The notes beneath the pieces were generated by a model, which made no database searches, was not told the DNA's origin, and was given only the letters and a program-made list of their open reading frames with translations. A stretch of 64,000 nt of DNA from Acidobacteriaceae bacterium (GTDB lineage: Bacteria > Acidobacteriota > Terriglobia > Terriglobales > Acidobacteriaceae), in the NCBI GenBank assembly GCA_003151335.1, contig PLXE01000120.1:62001-126000 (forward strand), written 5' to 3'. Of this stretch, positions 7,769-34,252 are shown in pieces. The translations under genes were made by a program, and so were the position numbers. Position 1 is the first letter of the stretch. Each line of letters opens with the position of its first letter.

Positions 7769-8544
7769 TTCCCCACCCACTTCGGTCTTCGTTTCTCGAT
7801 GAATGCTGCGATGCCTTCCTGCGCGTCCGCTGTTTTCATCAGCTCGTCGAAATAAATCTGTTCGGCGCGCGCCAAACCTTTATCGAAGTGAATCGCGTCC
7901 CAGGCATAAAATGCCTTCTTCGCCAGAGCGATGGCCGCCGAACTCAATTGCGACACCCGCTGCACACATTCCGTGACCAGGGTTTCGGGATCGTCGGCCA
8001 GACCGTTCACTAGTCCCGCCTCCAGCGCCTCCTGGCCATTCAGAGTTCGGCCGGTGAGGACGAGCTCGGCGGCCAGTTTTTGTCCCACAATAGCGGACAA
8101 GGCCACAGCGGCGACCGGCGGATAGCACGCCAGCTTGATCTCAGGAAATCCCCAAACCGAATCTGGCGCGGCGTAAACCACATCGCACATCATCGCCAGT
8201 TCCGCGCCTCCACCCAGGCAGTGCCGGCGAACGCTGGCAACCGTCAGCTTTCTGCTCCCCAGCACGGAGCGAATCACGCCGTGAAATGCGGTCAGCATGT
8301 CACGCACTTTGTCGGGCGTGTGGGCAGCGATGTCCACGCCGACGGAGAAAGCGCGCTCCGAACCCGCTAGGACGATGATGGTGATTTCCGCTCGTGCCTC
8401 GATCTGCTCCAGCGCTGCGCGCAACTCGTCCATCATCGGGACGTCGATGACGTTCAGCGGCGGGTTATTCAGGACGATGCGCGCTGCCGGTGGCTGCATC
8501 TCCACCGTGATGCGGTTAAAACCGATTTGCGTGACCGTGGTCAT
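7765..8544 (-). CDS. Enoyl-CoA hydratase/isomerase family protein, possibly cyclic dienoyl-CoA hydratase
   Basis: A 259-residue crotonase-fold enzyme acting on a CoA thioester. Oxyanion-hole segments are AFSVGVDIAAH (about residue 60) and CLGGGAELAM (about 105). The N-terminal NNPPLNVIDVPMM and the EIKLACYPPVA segment resemble cyclohexa-1,5-dienecarbonyl-CoA hydratases as I remember them; next to an HcrABC-like reductase this would fit a benzoyl-CoA-type pathway, but ordinary hydratases share much of this. The start at 8544 has GGAGAAGG seven bases upstream; the ORF-track start nine codons earlier does not. It overlaps the rhodanese gene by four bases. Confidence 0.83.
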   Translation of the reverse strand: MTTVTQIGFNRITVEMQPPAARIVLNNPPLNVIDVPMMDELRAALEQIEARAEITIIVLAGSERAFSVGVDIAAHTPDKVRDMLTAFHGVIRSVLGSRKLTVASVRRHCLGGGAELAMMCDVVYAAPDSVWGFPEIKLACYPPVAAVALSAIVGQKLAAELVLTGRTLNGQEALEAGLVNGLADDPETLVTECVQRVSQLSSAAIALAKKAFYAWDAIHFDKGLARAEQIYFDELMKTADAQEGIAAFIEKRRPKWVGK

Positions 8545-9555: not shown

Positions 9556-9712
9556 TTCTAATTTTAGTCTTACCCGGCTGATCCGGCAACCGCTCGATGC
9601 AAAGCGGGCTTACCTCAACGCCCATCGTTTTGGCCATCGCTTCTGTTTCCTGGAAAAGGCCTCTTCCTGGTTGATGGTCGCGGGCCACACGGGCGCCCCT
9701 GAAACAGTTGCG

Positions 9713-33250: not shown

Positions 33251-33612
33251 CCGAGAGAAATTGTAACGTGGAGAAGGGATATGCGCTGCGGTTCGGCTGG
33301 CACTCGGAACGGTTCCATGATTTGGTGTGCTTGCTTGTACGGGTAGTGGGGGCCTTCAGGAACGCCGAATGCGTCGGTCTCCAGGGCTTTGCGAATTGTG
33401 ATGCCAGCTTGCAATGCGGTAGGTGTTGATTGAGGTTTGCACAATAGGGTGACAGTTTCATAAAAATTGTCATCACGAGTGCAGCGAGGGACCTGCTTTT
33501 GCTTGTCCGCGGGAAAGCAGATTCCTCGCGCCCAAAATCGGGCGCTCGTAATGACAATTCACGAACTATGGGCACCCCGTTGTATGCTTTGCTGCGTCAT
33601 TACAATTCGCCA
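33251..33612. other. Gene-free spacer carrying a palindromic repeat
   Basis: Contains the 95-bp palindromic element at 33465-33559 and otherwise no gene I can support. A minus-strand ORF at 33283-33444 reads somewhat protein-like (PHYPYKQAHQIMEPF) but overlaps polX out of frame and has no SD. Confidence 0.5.
33465..33559. repeat. 95-bp MITE/REPIN-like palindromic element
   Basis: Termini AATTGTCATCACGAGTGC (33465-33482) and its inverse, 16 of 18 bases matching, at 33542-33559. A second nested inverted repeat, GCGAGGGACCTGCTTT against AAAGCAGATTCCTCGC, occupies the interior. The left half recurs at 63249-63288 and, more diverged, at 8577-8642. Confidence 0.75.
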
Positions 33613-33620
33613 TTCTCAAT

Positions 33621-34191
33621 CGGGAGCAGGTATCTGTTGAAACATGCATCCACCTACGGATTCCCCACCACAATGCGAGCAAGGTATTCCGCGATTTCTT
33701 CCACGTTGAATGTTTGTCCGGTTCGCTCAAGCAATGCTGTGAATTGGCCTATCGGGGAGTTTTTTTCCTGCAGGGAATATCTCAACTCTGACCCTACAAC
33801 TACCGGCTCGAATAATCCTTGTGCAACTCCCATGTATGAAATGGCTCCATCAAGGCGAACGTCTAATTCGGTAGCGCCATTCTTGAGCCTAAAGCTGTGG
33901 CCCTCGAGCGGCCAGAAGGTAATGCCAATCTCTTGGCTGAGAGCTTTTACTTCTCGCAAGAGGTCGTCCCACTGTTTCAGACCCTGCTTATTGATTACGT
34001 CCGCATCATGCAGTTTCTCGCGTTGATTCTGGTCGGCCTTCTGCTTCTGTTCGGCCAGCGATTCCTTCATCTCTCGCACAAAGTCTTGTCGTGTCATATC
34101 ACCTCCGCTTCTTGAATCATACTCACGCATAAAGCAAAACTGAACATCAAATCTGCACCTAAGAGCGAGGTTCAACAGATACCTACTCCCG
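33621..34191. mobile_element. 571-bp mobile insertion cassette with 21-bp TIRs and 8-bp target duplication
   Basis: Left end CGGGAGCAGGTATCTGTTG(AA) at 33621-33641 and its inverted copy at 34171-34191 match at 20 of 21 bases. Both ends are flanked by the direct repeat TTCTCAAT (33613-33620 and 34192-34199), the footprint of a transposase-made staggered cut. Inside is one gene with its own promoter and SD and no transposase. This is the form known as a mobile insertion cassette: IS-like termini carrying cargo, moved in trans. The interior is more AT-rich than the neighbours. Confidence 0.85.
33654..34097 (-). CDS. Cargo protein of the insertion cassette, function unknown
   Basis: A 147-residue protein I do not recognise. 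Residues 1-55 are a charged amphipathic helix or coiled coil (REMKESLAEQKQKADQNQREK), followed by a small alpha/beta domain (GHSFRLKNGATELDVRLDG; SPIGQFTALLERTGQTFNVEEI). ATG 34097 has a strong SD, GGAGGTGAT; the ORF-track start at 34214 lies outside the cassette's right end. A candidate promoter (TTCAGT-17-TATGAT) lies between the SD and the right repeat, so the gene is self-contained. The stop lies 12 bases from the left repeat. Cytosolic; no signal or membrane segment. Confidence 0.75.
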   Translation of the reverse strand: MTRQDFVREMKESLAEQKQKADQNQREKLHDADVINKQGLKQWDDLLREVKALSQEIGITFWPLEGHSFRLKNGATELDVRLDGAISYMGVAQGLFEPVVVGSELRYSLQEKNSPIGQFTALLERTGQTFNVEEIAEYLARIVVGNP

Positions 34192-34252
34192 TTCTCAATA
34201 GGCAGACAGCTCAACAGATTTGTATTGCGTGTCCGGCAAGACCTGCGCGCTC

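Follow-up and report, generated by a model that had tools for sequence, protein, structure and literature searches.

Structure of the element

The window, meaning the whole stretch of DNA that was analysed (64 kb of a soil bacterium of the Acidobacteriaceae), contains a 571-bp element at positions 33621-34191, located between what we take, from their sequences and not from HMM matches, to be a polX-like and a cspA-like gene, and holding one gene, on the minus strand. The features of the element and its borders are:

33613-33620, no strand: left target-site duplication TTCTCAAT, exact match to 34192-34199
33621-33641, plus strand: left terminal inverted repeat (TIR) CGGGAGCAGGTATCTGTTGAA, matching the right end at 20 of 21 positions
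33654-34097, minus strand: cargo gene, an open reading frame (ORF) with an ATG start, encoding 147 amino acids (P0001)
34102-34106, minus strand: Shine-Dalgarno sequence GGAGG of the cargo gene, read from the sequence
34171-34191, minus strand: right TIR CGGGAGTAGGTATCTGTTGAA, read inward on the minus strand, 20 of 21 positions
34192-34199, no strand: right target-site duplication TTCTCAAT, exact match to the left copy

The preliminary description of this locus had reported near-perfect 21-bp TIRs, an exact 8-bp duplication on both sides and one 147-residue gene with a Shine-Dalgarno sequence and no transposase, all of which were found again here. The cargo gene stops 12 bp from the left TIR and starts 73 bp from the right one, and its Shine-Dalgarno sequence is strong (GGAGGTGAT-ATG). 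The promoter also claimed for it was not recovered, as a sigma-70 scan of the strand of the gene gave no promoter at the scan threshold. No transposase was found inside the 571-bp element, either among its ORFs or by Pfam (DDE_Tnp_IS1595 is absent), so the element is not itself an IS.

The whole 64 kb was scanned for 21-bp inverted ends, up to 3 kb apart, that are bordered by an exact 8-bp duplication; only the 571-bp element came out with at most five mismatches, the next best candidate having six. With 5489 equal 8-mer pairs and a probability of 1.5e-11 for at least 20 of 21 matching positions, the chance expectation is ~8e-8 (about 1e-7) per window, which agrees with the earlier judgement that a chance origin is very unlikely. 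Adjoining the cassette, at 33465-33560, is an imperfect palindrome of ~100 bp. This repeat is dispersed, with some 100 more matches in the nine genomes of the genus.

IS1595 elements with matching ends

The end sequence was searched as a pattern, with up to two mismatches allowed, in 399 genomes of the class; 15 sites were found, including the two in the window itself, versus 4 in a reversed control. Two of these sites are the ends of complete elements, one of 3372 bp in genome G014, with ends matching at 17 of 21 positions and the target-site duplication TCTGACCT, and one of 2065 bp in G245, with ends matching at 18 of 21 positions and the duplication GTTTAGTT, read on the plus strand. A third, the 2059-bp element of G262, was reached by searching with the G014 transposase; it has perfect ends and the duplication AACTCTTT, and its transposase is 92% identical to that of G245. 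The three genomes represent other genera of the family, and the 8-bp duplications of their elements are perfect but differ from one another. The transposases of G014 and G245 contain the DDE_Tnp_IS1595 domain (PF12762; 4e-35 and 1e-32, respectively) and a zinc ribbon, and passenger ORFs are also present in both elements. These are the full-length IS sharing the ends of the cassette that the preliminary description had proposed to look for, and their existence was the decisive check; its reading of the locus as a mobile insertion cassette (MIC) is supported, with IS1595 as the likely helper family.

Transposases that are 71-87% identical to that of G014 go with CGGGANTAGG-type ends, present as both ends in G245 and G262 and as a single end in G295 and G280, and those at 45-50% identity go with ends reading CGGAAGTATGTACTTTACGC, where ends were found. 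The end sequence thus tracks the transposase subclade, which places the window cassette with the subclade of G014, G245 and G262; the 571-bp element combines the end sequence of this IS1595 subclade with an 8-bp duplication. Unrelated bacteria and archaea also gave exact matches to the TIR (L011-L014); these lacked an inverted partner with a matching duplication and were attributed to chance.

The G014 element encodes a further passenger with a DUF4145 domain (L056:10725-11618, E 3e-9). By eye, a sequence similar to the inner part of the TIR is visible inside the element just upstream of the transposase in L058 (~7937-7957) and L056 (~9636-9660), as if the inner end were old, the outer one newer and the passengers lay between them. 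The 8 bp flanking the end at 2950-2970 of L057 (G295:C60), AGGTCAGA, are the reverse complement of the G014 duplication, the two transposases being 87% identical; chance, a shared target and an assembly effect are all options.

Also present in IS1595-family elements of Acidobacteria are tRNA-like genes 85-96 nt long, whose variable arms are long and which resemble allo-tRNAs. The anticodon called goes with the transposase and end subclade, TGC occurring with CGGGANTAGG ends and TGG with CGGAAGTATG ends:

L056:8505-8593, tRNA-Ala TGC
L058:8684-8771, tRNA-Ala TGC
L141:5309-5396, tRNA-Ala TGC
L057:2662-2749, tRNA-Ala TGC
L145:5844-5928, tRNA-Pro TGG
L147:5770-5862, tRNA-Pro TGG
L150:5771-5855, tRNA-Pro TGG
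L151:5495-5583, tRNA-Pro TGG
L152:7212-7307, tRNA-Pro TGG

An allo-tRNA pseudogene overlapping a transposon-related ORF has been described in Edaphobacter, according to a review (PMC7609411).

IS1595 elements are numerous in the host and its congeners. The host's own IS1595 transposases reach only 33-37% identity to the G245 query, and its intact IS1595 end pairs read GGCAATTATTTACTTGAC; the host assembly yielded no transposase of the matching kind. No complete IS with the ends of the cassette was seen in the genus, in which one contig of another species (G008:C50) carries such an end with three mismatches and, ~0.55 kb apart, a short transposase piece of 64% identity. This contig evidently holds a decayed IS1595-family element, in the same genus as the host.

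Distribution and age of the insertion

The host genome, assembled to 4.65 Mb in 121 contigs, contains a single copy of the element. The ends of the element were found nowhere else in this genome at up to two mismatches, and the second copy that the preliminary description had suggested looking for was not recovered; one end site with three mismatches is present elsewhere in the genome, without a partner. The element is also present in three more species of the genus, represented by the genomes G007, G008 and G002; in G008 and G002 it is split across contigs with the break inside it. It occupies the same site in all four species, with common flanks and the left duplication TTCTCAAT preserved. 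In G008 the right copy of the duplication reads TTCTCGAT, and the right end of the element is changed at 2 of 20 positions in G007 and shortened in G002. The insertion is old, as four species hold the element at one site, and from the shared flanks it is one insertion and not several.

A match to the cargo is absent from five genomes of the genus, two of which are only 71-74% complete. The polX-cspA neighbourhood can still be recognised in G003, where a short and different stretch of DNA separates the genes. This relative, which can be aligned and lacks the element, also lacks the flanking intergenic DNA, and the clean empty site expected from the preliminary description was not found in any relative. 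No second site of the cargo was found in any genome searched, and movement of the cargo itself was not observed. The genomes compared are draft assemblies, from which IS elements are easily lost.

The cargo gene and its relatives

The cargo gene is intact in G007 and G008, with pN/pS values of 0.09-0.34. The window and G008 differ by 6 synonymous and 2 nonsynonymous changes (Fisher p 0.002), the window and G007 by 5 and 4 (p 0.03), and G007 and G008 by 5 and 6 (p 0.07); the three pairwise comparisons share sequences and are thus not independent. The cargo gene of G002, compared in two pieces only, has no clear excess of synonymous change. An intact gene under purifying selection, together with a right end that is decaying in relatives, suggests a gene retained in a cassette that is no longer moving, that is, a probably immobilised and retained MIC.

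The preliminary description saw no recognisable family in the cargo, which is borne out for Pfam, NCBIfam, PHROGs, PADLOC and the PDB, but the cargo does have relatives tied to IS1595 remnants. It had no match in Pfam, NCBIfam or PADLOC, its best PHROGs match reached only E 0.04, and no relative was found among the viral contigs, plasmids or phages searched. Its PDB sequence matches were designed helical proteins and similar helical chains, set aside as compositional matches to a long helix. Weak matches in G147 (L054) and G095 (L116), on the strand opposite long ORFs, were discarded, and those in G102 and G566 were not confirmed by tblastn.

The cargo is restricted to the genus and has one paralog in the host (37% identity, E 3e-9), on contig G000:C68, which shares the GGAGGTGATATG start context with the cargo gene and is located within ~0.7 kb of a C-terminal piece of an IS1595 transposase. 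This paralog is near the contig end, and no convincing pair of TIRs and target-site duplications was found around it; a nearby TTCTCAATAGG matches the right flank in the window, in the opposite orientation relative to the gene, and was regarded as a coincidence. In the G008 remnant, a gene for 165 amino acids ends 8 bp inside the end-like sequence. Compared alone, its protein is barely distinguishable from chance in similarity to the cargo (2 of 150 shuffles score higher). With two homologs added (from G405 and G281), hhalign gave a probability of 75%, and 63% on rerun, and a score of 34 versus 28.6 for the best of 200 column shuffles, in what is a weak profile comparison of few sequences. AlphaFold2 models of the cargo and of the G008 protein (mean pLDDT 83 and 78) have the same order of elements, though order only: for the cargo, a long helix, a six-stranded sheet and a C-terminal helix are predicted. 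Structure searches with both models gave no match at E <= 0.001. Common descent of the two proteins is favoured, with some reserve. It can be proposed tentatively, and with less confidence, that the cargo belongs to an unrecognised small alpha-beta family that is a standard passenger of IS1595 elements in Acidobacteria, and which has here survived the loss of its transposase to become a host gene that is fixed and under selection.

Origin and fate of the cassette

The locus is very probably a non-autonomous IS1595-type MIC, an old insertion that is probably immobile and has retained its cargo. Its structure is that of an MIC, with an IS-type TIR pair, a target-site duplication and a passenger gene without a transposase. 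Copies at several sites or a clean empty site, which would give this reading further support, were not found, and because of this we infer the mobility of the cassette, and its mobilisation in trans, from its ends.

The establishment of the cassette would have involved recognition of its 21-bp ends in trans by an IS1595-family transposase of the subclade with ends CGGGANTAGGTATYTGTTG, and insertion at TTCTCAAT between the polX-like and the cspA-like gene, duplicating 8 bp, before the four sampled species of the genus diverged. It most likely derived from a passenger-carrying IS1595 element after loss of the transposase. The helper was not found in the host assembly, with only a wreck left in one congener, so the cassette is probably no longer mobile. 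Its 147-aa gene is kept by purifying selection, presumably through a benefit to the cell.

That no mobile element is involved, and that an ancestral small intergenic gene lies between coincidental repeats, would agree with four species having the same gene at one site and with the second copy not being found, but it is contradicted by the chance estimate of ~8e-8 per window and by independent IS1595 elements with the same ends, which match this defined IS family, and is extremely improbable. A cassette that is still active, with its helper IS missing from the draft assembly, is quite unlikely: the near-perfect ends (20 of 21) and intact duplication of the window copy, and the many IS1595 elements in the host and congeners, are consistent with it, but the presence of a single copy at a single site in four species, the 33-37% identity of the host transposases to the matching kind, the GGCAATTATTTACTTGAC reading of the intact host ends and the decay of the right end in G007 and G002 all argue against it.

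Capture of a chromosomal gene between two IS1595 ends, in place of transposase loss from a passenger-carrying IS, is possible though doubtful. No match to an IS1595 transposase was found in the 12 kb retrieved for the relatives of the G008 passenger in G405 and G281, as capture would allow, whereas both the host paralog, which adjoins an IS1595 transposase piece, and the G008 remnant, in which a possibly related gene lies immediately within an end of this kind, point to transposase loss. The cargo is also unlikely to be an accessory protein of the defence or toxin-antitoxin type; passengers of mobile elements in general often are, and the paralog has a marginal PADLOC match (PDC-M40C, E 0.008) over 38 residues of its helical N-terminus, but the cargo itself has no PADLOC match, no partner gene in the cassette and no informative fold match.

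Comparison with known systems

Both MICs and passenger-carrying IS are already described, the former as MIC231 of Bacillus cereus and mic-qnrD of Proteeae (PMC3913671), of which MIC231A1 is moved in trans by IS231A (PMC3913671), and the latter, in the IS1595 family, as 'transporter IS' (PMC3129680). To these the present cassette adds an IS1595-type member with an uncharacterised cargo; a full-text literature search in one library gave no paper naming MICs together with Acidobacteria. As in MIC231 and mic-qnrD, IS-type inverted repeats flank a passenger instead of a transposase and the target is duplicated, but the window cassette differs from them in its IS1595 ends, 8-bp duplication and genus-restricted cargo, and in that its trans-mobilisation is presumed from sequence. 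It shares the same kind of ends and the 8-bp duplication with the IS1595 elements of G014, G245 and G262, but it lacks the transposase of passenger-carrying IS1595 elements and is 571 bp long compared with their 2.0-3.4 kb. MITEs are similarly short and without a transposase, with IS ends and a target duplication, whereas the cassette is single copy and contains an intact protein gene under purifying selection. Its end sequence ties a cassette without a transposase to its helper IS family, and the old insertion, with a cargo that stays conserved even as one end is decaying in relatives, is a concrete example of a gene kept after its mobilisation.
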